Below, one piece after another: positions 22,602 to 36,027 of a DNA stretch of 64,000 nucleotides; position 1 is the stretch's first letter; each line of letters starts with the position of its first letter. Source of the stretch: Acidaminococcus sp. (lineage in GTDB: Bacteria; Bacillota; Negativicutes; Acidaminococcales; Acidaminococcaceae); the NCBI GenBank assembly GCA_022482815.1, contig JAKVOM010000001.1, positions 2,748,946 to 2,812,945 on the forward strand. The letters run 5' to 3'. A program made the translations under genes and the position numbers. The notes below the pieces were generated by a model. It was not told the origin of the DNA, ran no database searches, and worked only from the letters and a program-made list of their open reading frames with translations.

Positions 22602-23714
22602 CTATTTTGCGGCAAATGAAAAGCCGTTCCATACCGGTTTTCCGGTAAAGTCTTTAGCTATTTCTTCACCTTTTAACACTCGGATTGCCCCCGCAGCCAA
22701 TGCTTCCATTTCAAATTCACCGGCCATGACTTCTACCGGTGCGATGAACCCAATCATTTCTTTCAATTTTGACGTAACATATTCATCATAGGAAATACCA
22801 CCGGTCAGAATGATGGCGTCTGCCTTGCCATGCAGCACTGCGGCCATGGCTCCTACTTCCTTGCCGATTTGATAAATCATTGCATCATAAATAAGACGGG
22901 CATAGGCATCTCCTGCGTCGGCACGAGCCTTGACTTCACGGGCGTCTGCCGTTCCAAGATGGTCGACAAGACCGCCGGTTTTCGTCATTTTCTGATACAT
23001 TTCCTTAGCCGTATAGCGCCCGGAAAAACACATTTCGATGACATCCCGCACCGGCAGTGTTCCGCAGCGCGTAGGTGCCATTGGTCCATCTCCCCCGGCA
23101 ATATCATTGGAATCAATCATTTTTCCCAGGGAATGAGCCGTTACAGAAATGCCTCCGCCGAGGTGGCAGATAATCAGGCGCAGACTGTCATAGCTGCGTC
23201 CGATTTTGGCCGCATACCGAAGGGCAATTTCCTTCTGGTTCAGAGCATGGAGAGAACTATGACGATATACGCCCTTTAGTCCTGTAACCCGGGCCAGATG
23301 CTGGAATTCGTCCACTTCCGGAGGGTTGACCACGAAGGCCTTCGCCCCGTATTTCTCTGCGAGAGCGTGAGCAATCGGGGCTCCCAAAATGGCAGGATGA
23401 ACGACCGACGGATGGATACGAGCATAATCAAGTAAGGTACTGCTGATAGTATAGACACCGCTTTCGACTGTTCCAATTCCGCCGCCGCGGCTAGAAATGG
23501 CATCAACTCCATCAAGGGTCATCCCTGACTTAGCAAGGCCTTCCAAAATTTTTTCCTTACGGTATCCGAGCTGGTCCCAGACTTCCTTAAAAGATTTCAA
23601 CTCCTTGGCACTGTGCTGGATATTTTCCGAATAGACCTTTTTCGTTCCTTCAAACATCGCCACTTTGGTCGATGTTGATCCTGGATTAATAACAAACACC
23701 TTATATGTTTTCAT
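22602..23714 (-). CDS. buk: butyrate kinase
   Basis: A 370-residue acetate/butyrate kinase superfamily member, closest in length and motifs to butyrate kinase (VINPGSTSTKVAMF at the N terminus, ICHLGGGISVTAH, GDGPMAPTRCGTLP, ILTGGISYDE). It transfers phosphate from a short-chain acyl phosphate to ADP, giving the acid and ATP; branched-chain acids are also accepted by some members. Last gene of the PFOR-led operon, 12 bases after the 2-hydroxycarboxylate transporter gene. Together with the phosphotransbutyrylase in the same operon it provides the substrate-level phosphorylation step of the proposed pathway. Confidence 0.93.
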   Translation of the reverse strand: MKTYKVFVINPGSTSTKVAMFEGTKKVYSENIQHSAKELKSFKEVWDQLGYRKEKILEGLAKSGMTLDGVDAISSRGGGIGTVESGVYTISSTLLDYARIHPSVVHPAILGAPIAHALAEKYGAKAFVVNPPEVDEFQHLARVTGLKGVYRHSSLHALNQKEIALRYAAKIGRSYDSLRLIICHLGGGISVTAHSLGKMIDSNDIAGGDGPMAPTRCGTLPVRDVIEMCFSGRYTAKEMYQKMTKTGGLVDHLGTADAREVKARADAGDAYARLIYDAMIYQIGKEVGAMAAVLHGKADAIILTGGISYDEYVTSKLKEMIGFIAPVEVMAGEFEMEALAAGAIRVLKGEEIAKDFTGKPVWNGFSFAAK

Positions 23715-23726
23715 GGATGACGCTCC

Positions 23727-25064
23727 TTACTTCATAAGGATCGGGTACAGAATACCGAGCCAGATAACCATGAGGGCGCCCCCGATGCGAGTGGAAATTG
23801 ATGCAAAAGCCAGGAGATTCATTCGGTTAGCCGCAGTCAGGACTGCAATATCACCGCTGCCGCCAATGTTGCAGCAGCAAAGGCCGGCCGTAACACCGCA
23901 TTCATAAGGATACAGGCCGGTCAGACGGCCAAAGAACATGGCGCCAAGGAAAGCACCCATAACGCCGATAAAGATGACAAGGAATACCGGAACCGTAAAG
24001 TATTCCGTCAAAGCCGTAAACTTGAGGGAATTTACCCCAATCCCAGCAATGAGCATCGGAAGAAGCGCTTTCAGAGCAAAGTTCATAGCGTAAACAGCGT
24101 CATCCATGATGTCGTTTTCCACAACACCAGTACACTTAACGATGATTGCAATGATAATGGACCAGGCAAGTCCGGCAATATGACCGGTGACCGGAAGTTT
24201 ACCTAAGATATAACCCATAAGATAAACAACCAGGCAGATAAAGATACCGCCGCCAAGGCGTGAATAATCGAGGGTCGTAGTGGGACGTTTTTCTTCTTCG
24301 GTAATCATATTTTCCTGTCCGATAAGAATCTTCCCATCCCCATTGAGTCCGTGGATTTTGGAAGTAATGCCATTACCCAATGCAGCAAGAACAACAGCCA
24401 GGACATTGGCAATGGAAGCATAGCAAAGGAACTGCCCGGCCATGCTTGTCATGTCTTTACCACTGAGTTCCGTATAAAGAATTGGCAATGTCGTCATGGC
24501 ACCTGCGCTGCCGCCCGACATACAAGGTGCTCCGATGTAGAAAAGGCCTTCTGCACCGCCAAATCCAATCAACTTGCCGCCAAGATAGCAGGCAATAAGT
24601 GCGATGGCCTGGCTTCCAACAATAGCAGGCATGTAGCGAGCTGTTGCTTTTAAAATAATTTTCCGATCCATGACCAGCACAGAACCAATGAGGAGGGCTG
24701 CGATGTACATATCCTGGAATCCCCCGCGCATCACTGTACGGATTCCGTTTTCGAGGGGTTTAGGAATGAGCCCTACGTAGTTCAGCCAGGAAGCACCGAT
24801 AAGCGGTAAAAGGCAGGCACCGCCCAAGTAATTATTCACAATGGGAATTGTGTTGCCGAGCCAAAAGAAGAGACCTCCGATGGCCATGAGAAAGGCAACT
24901 GTCATTACATAACTGGTAACTACATAACTTCCGGATGCATTGGAATAAATTTTTGCAAGAGGCATAAAATTTCCATAGACTGCGATAAGGATAACGGCGA
25001 ACAATAGGAAAAACGGTTTCGGGCCCATGCCGCAAACTTTAAATTTAATTTTTGAAGTATCCAT
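23727..25064 (-). CDS. 2-hydroxycarboxylate transporter family (CitS/CimH-like)
   Basis: A 445-residue secondary transporter of the 2HCT family, which carries citrate, malate or lactate with Na+ or H+, or by exchange. About eleven helices. The two re-entrant loop motifs are visible: MSGGSAGAMT in the first half (near residue 180) and CCNIGGSGDIAV in the second (near 405). The family recognises the 2-hydroxy-carboxylate unit, which strongly restricts the substrate of the surrounding operon to compounds such as citrate, malate, citramalate or related acids. GGGAG precedes the ATG. It lies between the phosphotransbutyrylase and butyrate kinase genes. Confidence 0.9.
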   Translation of the reverse strand: MDTSKIKFKVCGMGPKPFFLLFAVILIAVYGNFMPLAKIYSNASGSYVVTSYVMTVAFLMAIGGLFFWLGNTIPIVNNYLGGACLLPLIGASWLNYVGLIPKPLENGIRTVMRGGFQDMYIAALLIGSVLVMDRKIILKATARYMPAIVGSQAIALIACYLGGKLIGFGGAEGLFYIGAPCMSGGSAGAMTTLPILYTELSGKDMTSMAGQFLCYASIANVLAVVLAALGNGITSKIHGLNGDGKILIGQENMITEEEKRPTTTLDYSRLGGGIFICLVVYLMGYILGKLPVTGHIAGLAWSIIIAIIVKCTGVVENDIMDDAVYAMNFALKALLPMLIAGIGVNSLKFTALTEYFTVPVFLVIFIGVMGAFLGAMFFGRLTGLYPYECGVTAGLCCCNIGGSGDIAVLTAANRMNLLAFASISTRIGGALMVIWLGILYPILMK

Positions 25065-25123: not shown

Positions 25124-26023
25124 TCAATTTGCTTTTTTGGATGTCATTGCTGCCATAACGATAGCTAGATATTTATCCGTTACCGTAGCGGCCCGGGAAA
25201 CGAGAATAACCGGCACTAAACCGCCGACTACAACGCCGCCAGTTTTACAGCCGCCCAGCACAGTCAGGCTTTTTGCCGCAAGATTTCCCGCTACAATATC
25301 CGGGACGAGAAGGATATCGGCGTCCCCCGCAATGGGAGATTCATATCCTTTGATAGCACAAGCTTCCTTATCCATGGCAAGATCGAGGGAAATCGGGCCT
25401 TCCACAATCGCGCCAGGAATCCCTTCTTTCTTGATTTCTTCCGCTTCTATCGTCTGAGGTAATTTCGGATTGACTTTCTCCATTGCCGAAAGCACAGCAA
25501 TCTTTGGATTTTTTTCTCCCAGATTACGATAAGCAGCCACTGCATTCTGCAGCGCCATTTGCTTTTGTTCCTTTGTCGGGTAGGTCAGGAGCCCGACATC
25601 GGTAATGGTAAAAAGTTTATGGTAATGAGGGCTTTCCATAAAAGCCAGGATATTCATGACCTTGGAACAGGAAATCCCGTATTCCTTATTGACCAGCACT
25701 TTCATAAGCGTCTTGGTATCCAGATGTCCTTTCATGATGGCATCGACTTTACCTGCCCGGGCCAGTTCACAGGCTTTTTTCGCACACTCCGAAGGGTCAT
25801 CGATAGCAATAATCTCGGTTCCTTTCGGATCAATGCCTTCCTCTTTCAAGATAGTTTCAATACCCTGACGGTTCCCGATGAGAACAGGCGCAATCAGATT
25901 TTCTTTGTAAGCGCGCAGGACTGCTTCCAGCGTATGGAGATCCTGAGCAGCTACCACAGCAACCCGACTTTTGACCGGATCCTTCAAGAGGCGGTCTACA
26001 AGTTCAGCAAAGTTCTTAATCAT
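25124..26023 (-). CDS. ptb: phosphate butyryltransferase family enzyme
   Basis: A 299-residue phosphate acyltransferase that swaps CoA for phosphate on an acyl group (butyryl-CoA, or another short or branched acyl-CoA). Typical motifs: DAIMKGHLDTKTLMKVLVN, the EGPISLDLAMDKEA segment and ADILLVPDIVAGN. The length is that of Ptb rather than of the two-domain enzymes with a dehydratase part. It acts with the butyrate kinase encoded two genes downstream. In this operon acetyl-CoA from PFOR, or the second cleavage product, could be the real substrate. Gap to the dehydratase gene only 17 bases; GAGAGG precedes the ATG. Confidence 0.9.
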   Translation of the reverse strand: MIKNFAELVDRLLKDPVKSRVAVVAAQDLHTLEAVLRAYKENLIAPVLIGNRQGIETILKEEGIDPKGTEIIAIDDPSECAKKACELARAGKVDAIMKGHLDTKTLMKVLVNKEYGISCSKVMNILAFMESPHYHKLFTITDVGLLTYPTKEQKQMALQNAVAAYRNLGEKNPKIAVLSAMEKVNPKLPQTIEAEEIKKEGIPGAIVEGPISLDLAMDKEACAIKGYESPIAGDADILLVPDIVAGNLAAKSLTVLGGCKTGGVVVGGLVPVILVSRAATVTDKYLAIVMAAMTSKKAN

Positions 26024-26040: not shown

Positions 26041-27837
26041 TTATAAAGTTCTCGGATCCGTTACGACACCGGTCAAAGCGGTAGCCGCGGCTACTGCCGG
26101 ACTTGAGAGGTACGCCAGCGTTTTCTTTGTGCCCTGCCGGCCAATGAAATTCCGGTTTGCCGTCAGGAGGATGCGTTCATTGTCATACATAAGACCATAA
26201 GGCATACCGCAGCATAGACCGCAGCAAGGATGGGAAATCACGCAGCCGGCCTCAATAAAGTCTTTAATATATCCGGCAGCAATTGCTTCTTTAAATACAG
26301 TGTTAGTGGCCGGCACAACAATAACGCGAAGATGGTCGGGGACATGATGCCCGCGGAGAATATCAGCTGCAACCTTCAAATCTTTCAGGCTGCCGTTTGT
26401 GCAGGAGCCAATATAAACTTCGTCCATCGGAGTTCCCAGTACTTCACTGATGGGGTGGACATTATCAACACCCTGAGGGCAGCTGAGCTGCGGTTCCAGT
26501 TGGCTGACATCGTAGGTCAGCACTTTTTCGTAATGGGCATCGTCATCAACTTTGATCCAGTCGATATCGGAAAGAGGCATTCCGTAATAGGCCGCCGTTT
26601 TTTCATCAGCTTCGAAAAGTCCGCTCTTGGCACCTGCTTCGAGTGCCATATTGGCAACAGTAAAACGAGCGTCGAGTGACATTTCATGGGCTGCGGGACC
26701 TGTGAATTCAAGTGATTTATACTGAGCTCCGGAAGCAGTGATATCTCCCAAAATGCGAAGAATGATATCTTTCGAAAATACTCCTTTAGGGAAGTGTCCT
26801 TTCAAGACGACTTTAATGGCTTCAGGGACCTTAAACCACAGTTCTCCCGTTGTCAGGGCCGCGGCCATCTCTGCCGTGCCGATGCCGGAGCAGAAACATC
26901 CTGCTCCACCGTAAGTCGTAGTATGTGAGTCTGTGGCGGACTGCACTTCCCCCGGCTTGGCATAAAATTTTTCATGCATCAGAGAATGGCAGATACCTTC
27001 TCCGATATGCAGTTTCTTAATGCCGTACTCTTTAGCAAGCTCAAGGCCCGCATCGTAGTGAGCTGAATCATTTTTGGCAACGGCCGTTGGCATGCAGTGA
27101 TCGAAAACGATGCAAACTTTATCGGGATTAACAATTTTTTTCGTACCCATTCGATGCAGTGTATCAAGAAGATACGGTGTATAAATGTCATGAATCATAA
27201 GAAAATCAGGATGCGTAATGACAATATCCCCCGGCTTTACATTCTCGACTCCGGCATTACGACGCAGAATTTTTTCTGCAAGAGTGAACCCCGTGCGGCG
27301 AAGGGAAGCTTCGCTCAGTTTTGGCAGCTCCGGTGCCTTATACCCGGATGCTACTTTTTTCTTGGTATCTTCCACCAGGCCGCCATGTTCGACAATGTCC
27401 AGCAGATTCTGAGGAATGGCTCCAACCACAAACGATTTCCCATTGGCACTTACTTCGCGTTTTTCGAGGTCGACCGTAACAATATCCCCGCCTTTCACGA
27501 CATCCTGGATACCATCGCACTGCAAAAGAATGATGCCATTATTGAAAGCATTGCGGAAAAAGATACGGGCGAACGACTTGGCGATGATGCAGCGCACTCC
27601 ATTATGTGAAAGCACCGTTGCTGCCTGTTCGCGAGACGAACCACAGCCGAAATTCTTGCCGGCGACCAGAATATCTCCGGGCCGAACCGCTGTTCCAAAT
27701 TCCGGTTTCAGCAGTTCAAACGCATATTTTTTCATTTCTTCAATGGTCGGGATTGTACCGCGCTTACCGGGAATGATGGTGTCCGTATCGATATCATCAC
27801 CGAATGTCCAGATTTTTCCTTTGAATCGTGTTTCCAT
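26041..27837 (-). CDS. fused aconitase-superfamily dehydratase (small domain first)
   Basis: A 598-residue protein in which a LeuD-like swivel domain (about 1-165: DDIDTDTIIPGKRG, FGCGSSREQA) precedes a LeuC-like large domain (about 180-598: FDHCMPT, GEGICHSLMHEKF, ATDSHTTTYGGAG). The 4Fe-4S ligands are intact: Cys479 in GSCTNG, Cys539 and Cys542 in the CCGLCCG stretch. Most isopropylmalate dehydratases have two subunits, and in fused aconitases the small domain is at the C terminus, so the order here is inverted. It should interconvert a hydroxy-acid and its unsaturated form (aconitate, citraconate, dimethylmaleate or isopropylmaleate type). There is no leuA or leuB nearby, so leucine synthesis is unlikely. 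Operon mate of an inactive-looking paralogue 15 bases upstream. Confidence 0.9.
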   Translation of the reverse strand: METRFKGKIWTFGDDIDTDTIIPGKRGTIPTIEEMKKYAFELLKPEFGTAVRPGDILVAGKNFGCGSSREQAATVLSHNGVRCIIAKSFARIFFRNAFNNGIILLQCDGIQDVVKGGDIVTVDLEKREVSANGKSFVVGAIPQNLLDIVEHGGLVEDTKKKVASGYKAPELPKLSEASLRRTGFTLAEKILRRNAGVENVKPGDIVITHPDFLMIHDIYTPYLLDTLHRMGTKKIVNPDKVCIVFDHCMPTAVAKNDSAHYDAGLELAKEYGIKKLHIGEGICHSLMHEKFYAKPGEVQSATDSHTTTYGGAGCFCSGIGTAEMAAALTTGELWFKVPEAIKVVLKGHFPKGVFSKDIILRILGDITASGAQYKSLEFTGPAAHEMSLDARFTVANMALEAGAKSGLFEADEKTAAYYGMPLSDIDWIKVDDDAHYEKVLTYDVSQLEPQLSCPQGVDNVHPISEVLGTPMDEVYIGSCTNGSLKDLKVAADILRGHHVPDHLRVIVVPATNTVFKEAIAAGYIKDFIEAGCVISHPCCGLCCGMPYGLMYDNERILLTANRNFIGRQGTKKTLAYLSSPAVAAATALTGVVTDPRTL

Positions 27838-27852
27838 AACGCTTCTTCCCTC

Positions 27853-28962
27853 CTATTCACAAGCGGCCGCCATAATACTTTCGACGGAAGCCGTATAGAT
27901 AGACGCGTCATCACAGCCCATAGCTCCTTGATAGGTATAAAGACCTGTCGTAAGAAGCGTCTCATGATGGCCGATTACACCGGCCCCCTGAGAAACGATG
28001 TCATGATCTCCGGTTGCCTGAATCTGCGCATTGAAATCGATGAAGGTTGTAATCAATCCTTCTTCAAGTGCCTGCAGATATGTTTGCGATGTAGCCGGAC
28101 TGATGGATAAGCGGAATCCGCGTTTCAGCTTCTTCCCCTGCATCAAGGAAGCAGCAAGGCGAAGGGAATCAATATCTCCCCCATTCATCCCGGCAATCTG
28201 GCCGGCTTGAATCGGCTGCCCTTTCAGTTCTTCAAGAGTGCCAAATTCCGCTTCCATTTGGGTATATAGACTGGTGCAGGGTTTTCTTACCATACGCGTT
28301 ACCTTGCTGAGATCCAGCATTTGGCCGGGTGCTCCGCCAGAGACGGCGAAGGCAGTTACGGCTCCCGTGTCCACAGCCATTTCACAAAGCACTTCTTTTT
28401 CATGAGTGGAAAGCTGTGGGGCAATAAATTCTACGGCTTTTCCAACCAAGTTCCGATTTCTGCTCAGAAAATTCAAGGCAGCATCAATGACTCCGACTCC
28501 TTGAGGTAATTTACCGGTCACAGCAACCGAAAGGGTTTGGGGAACAATCATCTGATATTCGTCAGACTCCAGAACACGTGCCAGTTCTGTATGGCTGAGG
28601 CCAAGACCCATGGCCCCCACAGAACCCAAAATGGAGCTATGACGCGTGCCCGTAATGACAATGTCTCCGGCAGTAATTTTCTTTTCTTCCAACAGCCACT
28701 TCTGGGCAATTCCCTTCGCCTGGTAAAAGGTCAGGCCATTCTTTTTGGCAAAATGCAGGATTTCCTCAAAAACTTTAGATTCTTCCGGAAGTCCTGCCGG
28801 AACATTGTGATCATAGACAACGATTGCTCTGTCTCTAGCCTTTACAGAGGAAACAAGTCCTGTTACTTCATGTCCAAAACCGTTCGTCACAAGAACAAGG
28901 GTGGGCTTTACGCAAACGGCTGTACCTTCGAGTGCGCCAAGGATTTCTTCAATTCTGCTCAT
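27853..28962 (-). CDS. aconitase-like protein without cluster cysteines
   Basis: A 369-residue protein that aligns by eye with the large subunit of isopropylmalate dehydratase: VVYDHNVPAG, KGIAQKWLLEE, GTRHSSILGSVGAMGLGLSH, VAVTGKLPQGVG and FRLSISPATSQTYLQALEEG stand where the family motifs are expected. All three 4Fe-4S cysteines are missing: SCTNG has become GMNGGD (258-263) and the CxxC region reads TGDHDIV (317-323). The conserved DSHT triplet is also changed to TRHS. It therefore cannot bind the normal cluster, and is probably a regulatory or structural partner of the fused dehydratase, or an enzyme with new chemistry. It lies between PFOR and the fused dehydratase. AAGGAG precedes the ATG. 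Confidence 0.8.
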   Translation of the reverse strand: MSRIEEILGALEGTAVCVKPTLVLVTNGFGHEVTGLVSSVKARDRAIVVYDHNVPAGLPEESKVFEEILHFAKKNGLTFYQAKGIAQKWLLEEKKITAGDIVITGTRHSSILGSVGAMGLGLSHTELARVLESDEYQMIVPQTLSVAVTGKLPQGVGVIDAALNFLSRNRNLVGKAVEFIAPQLSTHEKEVLCEMAVDTGAVTAFAVSGGAPGQMLDLSKVTRMVRKPCTSLYTQMEAEFGTLEELKGQPIQAGQIAGMNGGDIDSLRLAASLMQGKKLKRGFRLSISPATSQTYLQALEEGLITTFIDFNAQIQATGDHDIVSQGAGVIGHHETLLTTGLYTYQGAMGCDDASIYTASVESIMAAACE

Positions 28963-29026: not shown

Positions 29027-32000
29027 TTATTCTCCGGCGAGTTTCTTATAACGGTTGTAGCGTTCCATTGCTTCTCTATGGCACTTTTCGTACAATGCTT
29101 CGGCTGCTTCCGGGAAGGAGCGCTTCAAAGAAGCATAGCGAGTTTCGCCCTGCAAGAATGCATCAAAGTCTCCCTGCGGTTCCTTGGAATCAAGGACAAA
29201 CGGATTCTTGCCGGCTTTTCTTAATTCAGGATTGAAACGGTACAATTGCCAGTAGCCGACTTCCACGGCTCTCTTGATTTCATCCTGAACTTTTCCCATT
29301 CCACAGCGCAGGCCGTGGTTAATGCAAGGCGAATAGCAAATGACAACGGACGGTCCATCATAAGCTTCAGCTTCGCGAATTGCAGTCAGTGTCTGCTGCA
29401 TATTGGCACCCATTGCGACCTGAGCCACATAGACATTGCCGTACTCCATAATCATGGCTCCCAAATCTTTCTTCTTATTAGGTTTGCCGGCAGCTGCGAA
29501 CTGGGCGACGGCACCGGTCGGCGTAGCCTTGGAAGCCTGTCCGCCCGTATTGGAGTACACTTCCGTATCAAACACGAGGACATTGACATCGGCACCGGAC
29601 GCAATCACGTGATCCAATCCGCCGTAGCCGATATCATAGGCCCAGCCATCGCCGCCGAAGAGCCAGACGGATTTCTTGGTAAGCTGATCCTGATTTTTCA
29701 GTGCATAATCCACATCGTCTTTTACAGCACTTCCCTGATATTTCTTAAGTGCCAGAAGCATTGCGTCGCCGATAGCACGGGCATCTTCTTTTTCATCTTT
29801 CCTAGCCAGCCACTGATTGGCAGCATTAGCCAGGGCAGCATCATCAGAATCTTCGGCAATCGCAGCAATATGATCGGTCAAAACACTTCTTCTCGCATCA
29901 TCAGCCAGTTTGATACCAAGTCCGTATTCGGCGTTATTTTCAAAGAGAGAGCCACCGACAGCAGGCCCATGGCCTTTCTTATTCGGCGTATACGGCATAC
30001 TCGGGAAACACGTTGCCCAAACCTGGGAGCAGCCGGTTGCCGTTGCGATATACATACGATCACCGAAAAGCTGCGTAACAAGTTTGGCATACGGAGTCTC
30101 ACCGCAGCCCGGGCAAGCCCCGTTGAATTCGAGTAACGGCTGATTGAACTGAGAGTTTTTAACCGTTTTTGTTCCCAGCGGATTGCGTACTTCCGGCAGT
30201 TTGGATGTATAATCCCAACCTGCCTTCTGTGGCATTTCCTCATCGAGAGAAGTCATAGTAAGTGCACCAGCCGGGCAAACATTGACGCAGGAGCCACAGC
30301 CCGTGCAGTCAAGAACGGAGACAGCCATATGGTAGTCATAGGATTCAAGCCCCTTTCCGCGAGCCGGTACTGCCTGTAGTGTTTGAGGAGCCTTTGCAGT
30401 TTCCTCCTTGGTGAGGAGCAGCGGGCGCAGGATTGCGTGCGGACATACATAGGAACACAAATTGCACTGAAGACACTTGGAAGAATCCCAATGGGGAACA
30501 CGAACCGAAGTACCGCGTTTTTCGTAACGGCTGGTCCCCTGTGGGAACATACCGTTTGCATACGGAACAAAATCAGAAACCGGAATATCATCGCCGACTG
30601 CAGTATTGACGCGGTTAAGGATTTTATCCACATAGTGCGAAACGGAGGCTTTCTCAGGAAGCGGCTCATTACTGCAGGAAGCCCAGGCTTCCGGAACCGG
30701 AACTGCTTTGACTTCCTTGACCCCGGCATCTACAGCCGCATAGTTCATATTGACAATCTTTTCTCCTTTACGGCCGTAAGATTTAAGAATGGCATCCTTC
30801 ATGTACTTCACAGCATCATAGATAGGGATGATATTGGCAATCTTGAAAAATGCAGCCTGCAGAACCGTGTTGGTACGGGAACCCAGACCCAGTCTGAAAG
30901 CAATGTCCACAGCATTGATGATATAAAGGTGAATGTGTTTCACGGCAAGATCGTGCTTCATTTTGTCCGGGAGACGCTTTTCCAGTTCTTCCGGTTTCCA
31001 TTCGCAGTTCAGCAGCAGGTTGGCGCCGTCCTTCAAGTCCTTTACCACATCGTACGTATGAACATAAGACTGGTTGTGTACACCGACAAAATCAGCTTTC
31101 TTGACGTAGTACTGAGAACGAATCGGCGCTTTACCAAAACGCAGGTGAGAGCGCGTCAAACCGCCGGATTTCTTTCCGTCGTACTCAAAATAGGCCTGTA
31201 CATTCAAATCGGTATGATCACCGATAATCTTGATGGTGTTTTTATTAGCTCCGACAGTCCCGTCGGATCCGATGCCCCAGAACTTGCAGCTTATGGTACC
31301 TTCGGGCACGATATCGAGTTCTTCGCCATAGGGAATAGAATGATGTGTCACATCATCGTTGATGCCGATTGTATAGTGATTAGCTGGAGTTTCATGGGTC
31401 ATATTCTCGAACATGGCCGCCACCATCGCCGGCGTCGTATCCTTACCTGCAAGGCCAAAACGGCAAGCCAATACTTTAAACGTACGATCCGTATCATTCA
31501 AAGCCGAAACAATTTCTTCATACAGCGGTTCACCTACGGCCCCGGCTTCCTTGTCACGATCAAGTACCGTCAAGACTTTGACCGTCTTCGGCAGAGCATC
31601 GACAAAATGTTTTACGGAGAACGGACGGAAGAGATGAACTTCCAGATAACCGACTTTTTTACCCTGTTTTCTCAAATAATCAACAGTTTCCTGAGCCGTA
31701 CCGGCAATGGAACCAAGGCCGGCAATCACGTATTCGGCATCAGGGTCGCCGTAATAATTAAACAGATGGTAGTCACGGCCCGTCAGCTTATTAATCTGGC
31801 CCATGCAGAACTCCACAACGTCCGGTAAAGCTTCATAATAAGGATTTACAGATTCGCGCTGCTGGAAATAGGTATCGTCGTTTTCACCAGTTGTGATCAG
31901 GGTCGGATGATCCGGATTCAATGAACCGGAGCGGAACTTATCAAGTTCGTCATAATCTACAAGTTTCTTTAATTCGTCATAATCGAGACAATCCACTTTT

Positions 32001-32539
32001 TGGATTTCGTGAGAAGTCCGGAAACCATCAAAAAAATGCAGGAAAGGAACATGACCTTTAATGGCGGATAAATGTGCCACAGCCGCAAGATCCATAGCCT
32101 GCTGTACCGTAGAAGAAGCTAACATCGCAAAGCCCGTCTGACGGCAGGCCATAACATCGGAGTGTTCGGCAAAAATAGAAATTACGTTGGTGGCCACATT
32201 ACGGCTTGCTACATGAACTACAGCCGGTTGGAGTTCACCGGCGATGCGGAACATTGTCGGAATCATTAGCATAAGGCCCTGAGAAGCTGTATAACTTGTC
32301 GAAAGCACGCCCGCATTAGAAGCACCATTGACCACTGAAATAGCACCGCATTCAGACTGCATTTCCACAAGTTTGACCGGCTTTCCGAAAATATTCTTTT
32401 TGCCGTGAGCTGCCCAGGCATCCACATGCTCAGCCATTGGAGAAGACGGCGTAATCGGATAAATAGCAGCGACTTCCGTAAATGCATAGGAAGCATACGC
32501 AGCGGCTTCATTCCCATCCATTGCTTTTTTGTACATCAT
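29027..32539 (-). CDS. nifJ: pyruvate:ferredoxin (flavodoxin) oxidoreductase, LacI-regulated copy
   Basis: A 1170-residue single-chain PFOR that oxidises pyruvate to acetyl-CoA and CO2 with reduction of ferredoxin. The N-terminal pyruvate/TPP domain starts with YPITPSSPMAEHVD; two 4Fe-4S motifs follow (CLQCNLCSYVCP and CTGCGSCVNVCP, roughly 690-770), then the C-terminal TPP domain with GDGWAYDIGYGG and NTGGQASKATPTGA and a cluster cysteine in GACPGCGETP. The length is normal. It is the first gene of a six-gene operon whose promoter carries the LacI-type palindrome, so this copy is probably induced only on the pathway substrate. A second PFOR lies at 48844. GAGAGG precedes ATGATG. Confidence 0.95.
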   Translation of the reverse strand: MMYKKAMDGNEAAAYASYAFTEVAAIYPITPSSPMAEHVDAWAAHGKKNIFGKPVKLVEMQSECGAISVVNGASNAGVLSTSYTASQGLMLMIPTMFRIAGELQPAVVHVASRNVATNVISIFAEHSDVMACRQTGFAMLASSTVQQAMDLAAVAHLSAIKGHVPFLHFFDGFRTSHEIQKVDCLDYDELKKLVDYDELDKFRSGSLNPDHPTLITTGENDDTYFQQRESVNPYYEALPDVVEFCMGQINKLTGRDYHLFNYYGDPDAEYVIAGLGSIAGTAQETVDYLRKQGKKVGYLEVHLFRPFSVKHFVDALPKTVKVLTVLDRDKEAGAVGEPLYEEIVSALNDTDRTFKVLACRFGLAGKDTTPAMVAAMFENMTHETPANHYTIGINDDVTHHSIPYGEELDIVPEGTISCKFWGIGSDGTVGANKNTIKIIGDHTDLNVQAYFEYDGKKSGGLTRSHLRFGKAPIRSQYYVKKADFVGVHNQSYVHTYDVVKDLKDGANLLLNCEWKPEELEKRLPDKMKHDLAVKHIHLYIINAVDIAFRLGLGSRTNTVLQAAFFKIANIIPIYDAVKYMKDAILKSYGRKGEKIVNMNYAAVDAGVKEVKAVPVPEAWASCSNEPLPEKASVSHYVDKILNRVNTAVGDDIPVSDFVPYANGMFPQGTSRYEKRGTSVRVPHWDSSKCLQCNLCSYVCPHAILRPLLLTKEETAKAPQTLQAVPARGKGLESYDYHMAVSVLDCTGCGSCVNVCPAGALTMTSLDEEMPQKAGWDYTSKLPEVRNPLGTKTVKNSQFNQPLLEFNGACPGCGETPYAKLVTQLFGDRMYIATATGCSQVWATCFPSMPYTPNKKGHGPAVGGSLFENNAEYGLGIKLADDARRSVLTDHIAAIAEDSDDAALANAANQWLARKDEKEDARAIGDAMLLALKKYQGSAVKDDVDYALKNQDQLTKKSVWLFGGDGWAYDIGYGGLDHVIASGADVNVLVFDTEVYSNTGGQASKATPTGAVAQFAAAGKPNKKKDLGAMIMEYGNVYVAQVAMGANMQQTLTAIREAEAYDGPSVVICYSPCINHGLRCGMGKVQDEIKRAVEVGYWQLYRFNPELRKAGKNPFVLDSKEPQGDFDAFLQGETRYASLKRSFPEAAEALYEKCHREAMERYNRYKKLAGE

Positions 32540-32904: not shown

Positions 32905-32959
32905 AAATATTTCTTCCCACGACGTATGAAGTGGGAAGCTCTGATAGCAGGTGATTTCA

Positions 32960-33973
32960 ATGTCTACAATCAAAGATGTTGCGAAAGCTGCCGGAGTTTC
33001 TCCGACTACGGTATCCATCATCCTGAATGGTAAATCGGAAGATCGAAAGATTTCCAAAGCCACTTATGACAACGTGATGAAGGCCATTCAGGATCTCGAT
33101 TATCATCCTAACCTTTCTGCACGTCGTCTCCGGTTCAACGATTTAAAAAAGCCAGCTCTTGCGTTTTTCTGGCCGAGCGATCACCGGACTCCGATTATGG
33201 CCACTTTTGTTAATTACATTCAGCAAGAACTCACGCTGCATAATTACGACTGTGAGTTTATTATTCAGACTTATAAAAACGACCATCTCTGTGAAAAAGC
33301 GGCTGCTTTTGCAAAAAACACTTACAATGCGATGATTATCGGTGCAGCTTCCTTAAAGGATGTAGAATTTCTTGAATCCATTTCCTCTCAAACACCAATC
33401 ATTTTGATTAACCGTAATTCCGAACGTTATTCGAGTGTGAATGTCGACGATTCAGCAGTCGGCCGTGAGGCTGCCCGTCTTATCTACGCCAAGGGCTGCC
33501 GCCGGGCCGCACTCCTAGCATCCCGCATGCCATACGTGGCAACCGGCATCCGCACACGCGCCTTTCTAAGTTCCTGTCAGGAACTTGGTATCGAAATTGC
33601 TGACAATGCCATCATTCGCTGCGAAAATACGATTGCCGGAGGTGTCGAAGGCGCCGCAGCCTTCTGCCGTCTTCCCGATCCTCCCCGCGTGCTTTTCTCT
33701 GAATCGGAGCAAAGCGCGGTGGGTGCTTTGTATACCTTTTACAAAAACAACGTCCATGTTCCCGATGACGTGGAACTCCTCTCTATGTCACTCATGAGTC
33801 CCGAAAGCACGATGTATACGATTCCACCACTCAGCGTCATTGAAATTCCTCAGTCTGAAGTCAGCCGGGAAATCGTGAATATGCTCATGAAACTACTTTC
33901 AGGCACTATAAAAGGTCCGCTGCATAAAGTGCTGCAGCCTAAGGTTGTATTGAGAGAAAGCTTTACGCTATAA
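32960..33973 (+). CDS. LacI family transcriptional regulator
   Basis: A 337-residue LacI-type repressor. The N-terminal helix-turn-helix and hinge are typical (STIKDVAKAAGVSPTTVS, then SARRLR in the hinge region near residue 57), followed by the periplasmic-binding-like effector domain (about 65-335). The start at 32960 follows AGGTGA; a GTG nine bases upstream is possible. It is divergent from the PFOR operon and lies just before the decarboxylase-like gene. Three CG-centred palindromes at the promoters of these units make it the likely controller of all nine genes, with release by an intermediate or substrate of the pathway. Confidence 0.92.
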   Translation: MSTIKDVAKAAGVSPTTVSIILNGKSEDRKISKATYDNVMKAIQDLDYHPNLSARRLRFNDLKKPALAFFWPSDHRTPIMATFVNYIQQELTLHNYDCEFIIQTYKNDHLCEKAAAFAKNTYNAMIIGAASLKDVEFLESISSQTPIILINRNSERYSSVNVDDSAVGREAARLIYAKGCRRAALLASRMPYVATGIRTRAFLSSCQELGIEIADNAIIRCENTIAGGVEGAAAFCRLPDPPRVLFSESEQSAVGALYTFYKNNVHVPDDVELLSMSLMSPESTMYTIPPLSVIEIPQSEVSREIVNMLMKLLSGTIKGPLHKVLQPKVVLRESFTL

Positions 33974-34171: not shown

Positions 34172-34242
34172 TCTATTTTCCTAAGGAATTGGATTGCCTG
34201 TCCTTCCTGTTTAGTACTTTTTTCAAAAAGGATGTGAGTACT

Positions 34243-35619
34243 TTGTCTTTTTTTACTAAAACAAAGCCCTATTTTGCAGAAAATCCTCACCCTCTGCAGT
34301 TCAACAGTGTTGAATTCAGAGATGGACAGCAATCTCTTTTTGCCACCCGCATGACAACGTCCGAAATGCTGCCACTGTTGGAAGCTATGGATAACGTTGG
34401 TTTTGCCTCTATGGAAATGTGGGGCGGCGCAACATTTGATGTGGCAATCCGTTTTCTTGGTGAAGATCCGTGGGAACGCCTGCGCCTCTTCAAACAACAC
34501 GTTAAAAAAACACCGCTTAAAATGGTTCTCCGTGCCCAGAACCTTGTAGGCTATCAAGCTTATCCGGATGATGTTGTGGAAGACTTTGTTGCCCGGGCTG
34601 CCGAAAACGGTATCGATATATTCCTGACCTTTGATGCTTTGGGAGATTTGCGCAACTGTGAAACTGCTTTTAAGGCTATCAAAAAGGCCGGTAAGACCAT
34701 CGAAGGATCTCTGCAATACAATATCAGTCCTTTTAATACCATTGAATCCTATGTGAAAAACGCAAAGGAACAAGTAGAAATGGGAGCCTCTTCCATTCAT
34801 GTGGAAGATATGGCAGGACTCATGACACCCCAAGCGGCATTTGAGCTTATTACTGCACTCAAAAAAGAGCTTACCGTGCCGGTACATCTGCACGCACATT
34901 GCGTCGGTGGGCTGGCAGACATGGCTTATTGGGAAGCAATCCAAGCAGGGGTAGACGGACTCGATGTCTGTGTATCTTCTATGGCATTCAGTTCCGCTCA
35001 TCCTCCCCTTGAAAGCTATATCTCCGCACTGCGTGGTACGCCGCGGGATCCGAAAATTGACTTAGGACAATTTGATGCTATCAATAAACAGTTTCTGGAA
35101 GTACGTCGTCGTCATGCCGATACAGCAACAAAACTCGTCGGCGTAGATGTAGGATGCTTGAAACATCAGGTACCCGGCGGCATGCTTTCCAATCTAGAAG
35201 GGCAGCTCAAAGCTATGAACATGTCTGACCGGCTGCCGGAAGTTCTGAAGGAAGTGACCCAGGTACGCGCCGATATGGGGTACCCTCCCCTTGCTACTCC
35301 ATCAAGCCAAATCTGCGGTGCTCAGGCAACTGTTAATGTGCTTACCGGGAAGCGCTATTCCATGATTTCCAAGGAAATGACCGATTACTGCCGCGGCCTT
35401 TACGGAATGCCTCCCGGAAAAATCAATCCGGAACTTTCTTCGAAAGCACTCAAAGGAAAAACATCTGACTTCAGTCGCCCAGGCAGCCGCATTGCACCGG
35501 GACTTGAAAAAGCCCGCAAAGAAGCGGGAACCCTCGCCCGCTGTGAGGAAGATGTGCTGACTTATGCGCTCTTTCCCGAAGTAGCAAAAACCTTTTTAGC
35601 CAATAAATACAGTCGTTGA
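34243..35619 (+). CDS. oxaloacetate decarboxylase alpha/carboxyltransferase-like DRE-TIM protein
   Basis: A protein of about 458 residues, related to oxaloacetate decarboxylase alpha and the carboxyltransferase domain of pyruvate carboxylase: TIM barrel (about 18-300) and the conserved HQVPGGMLSNLEGQLK and PPLATPSSQICGAQ segments. It has no biotin domain. Metal ligands Asp27 (RDGQQS, usually RDAHQS), His217 and His219 (HAH) remain, but the lysine that is carbamylated in this family (KDMAGL) is Glu188 here (EDMAGL), and HTHDTSG has become HAHCVGG. It may therefore be a biotin-independent decarboxylase or a C-C lyase for an oxaloacetate-like substrate. Start uncertain: a TTG at 34243 (AAGGAT nine bases upstream) is preferred to GTG at 34234 or TTG at 34189. 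Operator-bearing promoter upstream; CMD gene follows 18 bases downstream. Confidence 0.82.
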   Translation: MSFFTKTKPYFAENPHPLQFNSVEFRDGQQSLFATRMTTSEMLPLLEAMDNVGFASMEMWGGATFDVAIRFLGEDPWERLRLFKQHVKKTPLKMVLRAQNLVGYQAYPDDVVEDFVARAAENGIDIFLTFDALGDLRNCETAFKAIKKAGKTIEGSLQYNISPFNTIESYVKNAKEQVEMGASSIHVEDMAGLMTPQAAFELITALKKELTVPVHLHAHCVGGLADMAYWEAIQAGVDGLDVCVSSMAFSSAHPPLESYISALRGTPRDPKIDLGQFDAINKQFLEVRRRHADTATKLVGVDVGCLKHQVPGGMLSNLEGQLKAMNMSDRLPEVLKEVTQVRADMGYPPLATPSSQICGAQATVNVLTGKRYSMISKEMTDYCRGLYGMPPGKINPELSSKALKGKTSDFSRPGSRIAPGLEKARKEAGTLARCEEDVLTYALFPEVAKTFLANKYSR

Positions 35620-35637: not shown

Positions 35638-36027
35638 ATGAAGCAAACTGATGAAAAAAAATTAATTCGTTCTCGGGAGATTCTTAAAGAACTGAAGGAA
35701 GCACGCGGCGGTTCGGTAATGGCATCTCACCGCAAAATGGGAAACGATCCGAATCTTGTAAATATGTTTCTTCAGCAGTATGTAAACTGCAATAAAAAAG
35801 ATATCAATATACCGCGTAAATATCGTGAACTGATTGTCATGGCCATCGGCATGGCCAGCGGCACGGCAACCACAATGAAAGTTCATTCCAAACTGGCCCT
35901 GGAAAACGGAGCGACACTTGATGAAATTTTTGAAGTCATCCGCATCATTTTCTTCACTTGCGGAGTAACCAAACTGCTCCCTATCCTGGAAACGCTCGAT
36001 ATAATTGAACCAATTGAAGAAGATTAA
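35638..36027 (+). CDS. carboxymuconolactone decarboxylase-family protein
   Basis: A 129-residue all-helical protein of the CMD/AhpD family (IPRKYRELIVMAIGMASG, then KVHSKLALENGATLDEIFEVIRIIFF). The peroxidase-type CxxC of AhpD is absent: the equivalent stretch reads SGTATTMKVH, so thiol redox activity is not expected, while the His common to the family is kept. It follows the decarboxylase-like gene with an AAAGGAG site and no terminator between, so the two form a unit. Role unknown; a decarboxylase or lactonase-like helper in the same pathway is the natural guess. Confidence 0.85.
   Translation: MKQTDEKKLIRSREILKELKEARGGSVMASHRKMGNDPNLVNMFLQQYVNCNKKDINIPRKYRELIVMAIGMASGTATTMKVHSKLALENGATLDEIFEVIRIIFFTCGVTKLLPILETLDIIEPIEED

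Follow-up and report, generated by a model that had tools for sequence, protein, structure and literature searches.

A LeuC paralogue without cluster ligands beside an intact LeuD–LeuC isomerase in Acidaminococcus: a putative non-catalytic third subunit

Why would a bacterium keep, side by side, an isomerase of the aconitase superfamily and a relative of it that has no ligands for an iron–sulfur cluster? The question is raised by a stretch of 64,000 nucleotides from Acidaminococcus sp. (contig JAKVOM010000001.1), here called the window, in which the gene of a LeuC-like protein, P1, lies directly beside that of a fused LeuD–LeuC isomerase (Table 1). A preliminary description had offered two explanations, an inactive protein that regulates the dehydratase or makes it complete, or cluster-free chemistry. 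The analysis reported here favours the former: P1 may serve, without catalyzing a reaction itself, as the third subunit of a catabolic isomerase resembling the isopropylmalate/citramalate enzymes, a reading to which, from sequence evidence, we give a probability of about 0.55.

Table 1. Coordinates of genes and former active-site loops within the window.
Feature	Position	Strand	Details
Butyrate kinase (Buk)	22602–23714	minus	
2-Hydroxycarboxylate transporter (2HCT)	23727–25064	minus	
Phosphate butyryltransferase-like (Ptb)	25124–26023	minus	
Fused LeuD–LeuC isomerase	26041–27837	minus	598 aa; LeuD N-terminal, LeuC C-terminal; active-site residues intact
P1, cluster-less LeuC paralogue	27853–28962	minus	369 aa; aconitase domains 1–3
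Former NRNFxGR loop of P1	27916–27948	minus	Residues 339–349, TGLYTYQGAMG; R447 → Y342
Former CxxC loop of P1	27991–28017	minus	Residues 316–324, ATGDHDIVS; C421 → D319, C424 → I322
Former SCTNG loop of P1	28177–28191	minus	Residues 258–262, GMNGG; C358 equivalent is M259
Former DSHT loop of P1	28624–28650	minus	Residues 105–113, GTRHSSILG; His alone kept (H108, equivalent to H167)
Pyruvate:ferredoxin oxidoreductase (PFOR)	29027–32539	minus	Directly upstream of P1
LacI-family regulator	32951–33973	plus	Divergent; conserved beside operon
OadA/PycB-like carboxyltransferase	34189–35619	plus	Conserved beside operon
Carboxymuconolactone-decarboxylase-like (CMD-like) protein	35638–36027	plus	Conserved beside operon

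The P1 reading frame is uninterrupted, as first described, and a good Shine–Dalgarno sequence (AAAGGAG) precedes its ATG, good expression being a prediction from that sequence. Its stop codon overlaps the AGGAGG Shine–Dalgarno sequence of the downstream LeuD–LeuC gene. The product is about 45 residues shorter than the partner LeuC and belongs to the aconitase superfamily by both fold and sequence kinship. It matches the Pfam Aconitase model PF00330 with an E-value of 1.9e-26 (93.5 bits against a cut-off of 28.7), and the best NCBIfam models are those of isopropylmalate isomerase/homoaconitase large subunits, with scores far under their cut-offs; for TIGR02086, 155.9 bits falls short of the curated-family threshold of 410. 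An AlphaFold2 model built from an alignment with 19 orthologues (pLDDT 92, pTM 0.90) confirms, at the level of prediction, the fold of LeuC/aconitase domains 1–3. The model matches the Methanocaldococcus jannaschii homoaconitase large subunit 4kp2 (VIA Z 46) and the isopropylmalate isomerase large subunit from the same species (Z 42) over the full length, and aconitase with Z 35; IRP1 and IRP2 are also among the fold matches. A fold unrelated to aconitase, which would have undone the preliminary description, was thus not found, and the Pfam and structure matches together rule out a chance resemblance.

What has changed is the active site. Residue numbers used here for the superfamily are those that we take to be the mitochondrial aconitase numbering, and the motifs of P1 were read by alignment to the partner LeuC. 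All three cluster cysteines are replaced, as had been claimed: where the partner has PCCGLC, P1 has TGDHDI, and the altered SCTNG loop is also as described. TDSHT has become GTRHS, with D165 and S166 gone and H167 kept; NRNFIGR reads LYTYQGA, with R452 replaced by A347; and the GxxHQ motif is gone. In all, D165, S166, H147, N446, R447, and R452 are substituted, D100, H101, and H167 are retained, and H167 is the only residue left of the DSHT, GxxHQ, and NRNFxGR motifs. P1 has five cysteines (positions 17, 193, 229, 350, and 368), none of them invariant in its family. Judged by these residues, P1 would not belong among the catalytic [4Fe-4S] large subunits of the LeuC/aconitase kind.

The loss is not a peculiarity of one genome. 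When 84,980 species genomes were scanned with an alignment of three sequences, 18 further P1 loci were found, a lower bound because the scan relies on two peptide patterns. The hosts include Acidaminococcus, Lachnospiraceae, Gemmiger, Clostridium, Hungatella, Anaerobium, Veillonella, Companilactobacillus, Liquorilactobacillus, and one Synergistaceae metagenome-assembled genome, among others. None of the 19 proteins has a complete set of cluster cysteines, and three keep the first one alone (GGCNGG). In every one, Asp stands at the position of C421 and Tyr at that of R447, and D100 and H167 are kept; in P1 numbering, D51, H108, D319, and Y342 are invariant and H52 is nearly so. Positions aligned with the old active site show greater conservation than positions drawn at random (p 0.016), and 21 of the 32 near-invariant positions specific to P1 fall within residues 258–342 of the cluster domain (a post hoc count); judged by sequence neighborhood, P1-specific invariants were not significantly enriched around the old active site (p 0.14). 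No cysteine column is conserved in at least 18 of the 19 proteins, the best reaching 17 and 16, which rules out a shift of the ligands to other positions, the outcome that would have overturned the original claim. A profile made from a mixed P1 set (A1) mostly drew ordinary LeuC. A plasmid search gave ordinary LeuC only among the matches listed, and an IMG/VR scan with P1 gave no relatives.

Where P1 comes from is indicated by two trees, in both of which it shares a clade with LeuC1, the complete LeuC encoded in tandem LeuD1-LeuC1-LeuD2-LeuC2 loci. The clade holds LeuC1, a set of shortened P1 cousins that keep the cysteines, and the cysteine-less P1 proteins, which form a single clade with support of 100/99. 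The cousins have cluster cysteines at the canonical positions, therefore their loss in P1 is secondary. They are placed between LeuC1 and cysteine-less P1, and all those whose motifs could be read completely already lack DSHT except for its His, GxxHQ, and both arginines of NRNFxGR; catalytic residues were thus lost first, and cluster ligands later. Two very divergent P1 domains, in loci L148 and L149, lie among the cysteine-keeping cousins; they too are without the cysteines, and H101 and H167 are changed in addition. The tree favors two separate cluster losses, in the main clade and in these fused forms, but the AU test does not reject a single one (p 0.13). Tandem loci were seen in L096, L097, L099, L100, L101, L150–L152, L163, L164, and L037; those of Negativicutes mostly adjoin a LysR-type gene. 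LeuC1 reads GTRNF where NRNF is expected.

Retention of P1 is also visible in its rate of change. Nei–Gojobori dN/dS values for P1 pairs lie between 0.09 and 0.12, with dS near saturation for some pairs, and those for the LeuD–LeuC partner between 0.02 and 0.07 for the pairs where they could be computed. A value of about 0.1, above that of the partner, shows P1 to be functional yet less constrained than LeuD–LeuC, and it rules out a pseudogene.

The partner keeps every active-site residue that was checked, which bears out the impression of an active-looking fused paralogue, and its best solved match is the M. jannaschii isopropylmalate/citramalate isomerase; an AlphaFold2 model of the fusion, from a shallow alignment, was poor (pLDDT 49). 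A search of 350 genomes of the class, started from the LeuC of the window, turned up 23 LeuC2-type loci in 21 genomes, and all 23 have a partner of the LeuC1 lineage in the cluster, which is P1 in 13 and a full LeuC1-LeuD1 in 10. A transporter gene separates P1 from LeuC in two of the 13 (L036 and L098). Among the other cysteine-less loci, LeuD starts 1–18 nt past P1 in all 17 where the next gene is visible. P1 and LeuD form one polypeptide in L148 (6285–7895) and L149 (10565–12376), with LeuC directly after, while LeuD and LeuC are one polypeptide in the window and in most clostridial loci. Taken together, the P1–LeuD fusions in two genomes and the LeuD–LeuC fusion in the window suggest that P1, LeuD, and LeuC would share one complex. 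Adjacency to LeuD and LeuC was partly inherited from the tandem arrangement, and to that extent it counts against reading P1 as a subunit, as does the great divergence of the fused P1 domains.

The surroundings hint at what such a complex might do. The conserved neighbors of P1 are the LacI regulator, PFOR, LeuD–LeuC, Ptb, Buk, 2HCT, and the OadA-like and CMD-like proteins. Most P1 loci also contain a LeuB-like dehydrogenase scoring just under the LeuB cut-off; it is absent from the window cluster, and its relatives in the same genome reach just 37% and 29%. The two lactobacilli retain no more of this set than LacI, the LeuB-like gene, P1, LeuD, LeuC, and 2HCT; their clusters contain no PFOR, Ptb, or Buk and have an additional 2-hydroxyacid dehydrogenase, whose best solved match in Liquorilactobacillus ghanensis is L-2-hydroxyisocaproate dehydrogenase. 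This gene content fits an alkylmalate fermentation in which a 2-hydroxy-dicarboxylate would be imported, isomerized, and oxidatively decarboxylated. The most likely substrate would be citramalate, which would pass through 2-oxobutyrate to propionate and is the best fit to PFOR; 2-isopropylmalate would be the alternative.

Several details of these loci deserve mention in their own right. The 476-residue OadA/PycB-like ORF has matches that cover the carboxyltransferase and PYC_OADA domains only, with no biotinyl domain, and is regularly found next to the small CMD-like protein in P1 loci. L033 and L034, in the same genome, are paralogous operons with a Kor-type 2-oxoacid oxidoreductase and PFOR, respectively, possibly serving two substrates. 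A metal-hydrolase-like ORF ('GIRLRWLNTAGFEI...') recurs beside the operon in L106, L108, L112, L117, and L118. In L165, LeuC and LeuD adjoin PrpF-like, isocitrate-lyase-like, and hydroxyacid-dehydrogenase-like ORFs, an arrangement that resembles a nicotinate/dimethylmalate fermentation cluster.

A model that joins these observations would run as follows. P1 descends from LeuC1, the second complete large subunit of the tandem; LeuD1 was lost, LeuC1 shed its substrate and acid/base residues, and the cluster ligands went later, in the clade of the window P1, while the protein would have stayed bound to LeuD and LeuC2 throughout. P1 would then be needed to assemble the active LeuD–LeuC, to stabilize it, or to control it in response to a ligand. 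The complex might convert the imported 2-hydroxy-dicarboxylate to its 3-hydroxy isomer, from which the LeuB-like dehydrogenase would make a 2-oxo acid, PFOR an acyl-CoA, and Ptb and Buk ATP; in lactobacilli the 2-oxo acid might be reduced by the 2-hydroxyacid dehydrogenase instead. The inactive partner proposed in the preliminary description is the better supported of its two suggestions, through linkage, P1–LeuD fusions, purifying selection, and the loss of catalytic residues before the cysteines.

Its other suggestion, cluster-free chemistry, could mean that P1 works without a cluster as an enzyme in its own right in this pathway, such as a hydro-lyase, epimerase, or racemase making the isomer for LeuD–LeuC; the retained Asp–His pair and H167 would then act together with the newly acquired Asp and Tyr, possibly at a mononuclear metal. 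Such an enzyme keeps some probability because these residues are invariant, or nearly so for H52, and active-site-aligned positions are conserved although changed, which also argues against a pure scaffold, as this would not need them; AcnX, moreover, shows that the aconitase fold tolerates other centers. Yet P1 lacks a LeuD of its own, and in this superfamily it is LeuD that supplies the catalytic Ser and Arg. P1 also evolves faster than LeuD–LeuC, its linkage to LeuC2 in 23 of 23 loci fits a subunit better, and the changes at H101 and H167 in the fused forms argue against a conserved reaction of P1. We consider a separate enzyme unlikely, if clearly worth weighing, and it seems fairly unlikely that P1 is active with a center rebuilt from the old cluster pocket and has its own step in alkylmalate catabolism.

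The P1–LeuD fusions weigh on two further proposals. If P1 were a ligand-binding sensor or regulator, acting on the operon by IRP-like moonlighting or transiently on LeuD–LeuC, it would follow other aconitase-fold proteins that turned regulators, IRP1 and IRP2 being among its fold matches; a fusion to LeuD points to an enzyme rather than to nucleic acid, nearly all loci already have a LacI regulator of their own alongside, and the proposal appears improbable. The strict co-occurrence of P1 with a [4Fe-4S] partner would suit a chaperone that builds or protects the cluster of LeuD–LeuC without lasting membership of the complex. Fusion suggests a permanent link, and we know of no other LeuCD enzyme that needs such a factor, which leaves a chaperone distinctly improbable. 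That every cluster ligand and the majority of the catalytic residues have gone might finally suggest a decaying relic of LeuC1. With dN/dS at about 0.1, intact reading frames, new residues invariant across 19 loci, and P1 retained in all 13 reduced loci, this is scarcely credible.

The hydro-lyases of the aconitase superfamily that carry a [4Fe-4S] cluster are known to consist of one or two parts. If P1 is indeed a non-catalytic third subunit, a conserved pseudo-catalytic component would change the view of the stoichiometry and control of LeuCD. The series from active protein to one with the cluster only, then to no cluster and to a fused form, would offer a natural experiment in the conversion of an iron–sulfur enzyme to a non-catalytic partner, and the operon would mark a candidate route of alkylmalate fermentation in gut anaerobes and lactobacilli. 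No description of an inactive LeuC paralogue, or of such an operon or subunit, was found in the open-access literature that was searched.

Comparison with known systems places P1 closest to LeuC of the isopropylmalate/citramalate isomerase and to the homoaconitase large subunit (4kp1, 4kp2). It shares their full-length fold (Z 42–46), their origin, and the proximity of LeuD and, in most loci, LeuB-like genes; in contrast to them, it has no cluster cysteines, DSHT motif, NRNFxGR arginines, or LeuD of its own. AcnX (7cnq/7cnr) has in common with P1 the aconitase fold and an altered iron site, for which a mononuclear Fe center was first proposed (PMC5144071) and later a [2Fe-2S] cluster (PMC10040528). 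AcnX has shifted some of its cysteine ligands, keeps three of them, and is catalytic, whereas P1 lacks a conserved cysteine set; membership of AcnX is ruled out, there being no conserved cysteines in P1 at AcnX sites A–C (as defined in PMC10040528). In the tree, which did not contain AcnX, P1 groups with LeuC1. Loss of enzyme activity within the fold, known for IRP2, would link P1 to that protein and to further members of the fold that are not active aconitases; IRP2, however, regulates by binding RNA in eukaryotes and does not partner an enzyme. The proposed union of active and inactive paralogues in one enzyme has its nearest analogy in NAD-isocitrate dehydrogenase, where the beta and gamma subunits are inactive and the fold is unrelated.
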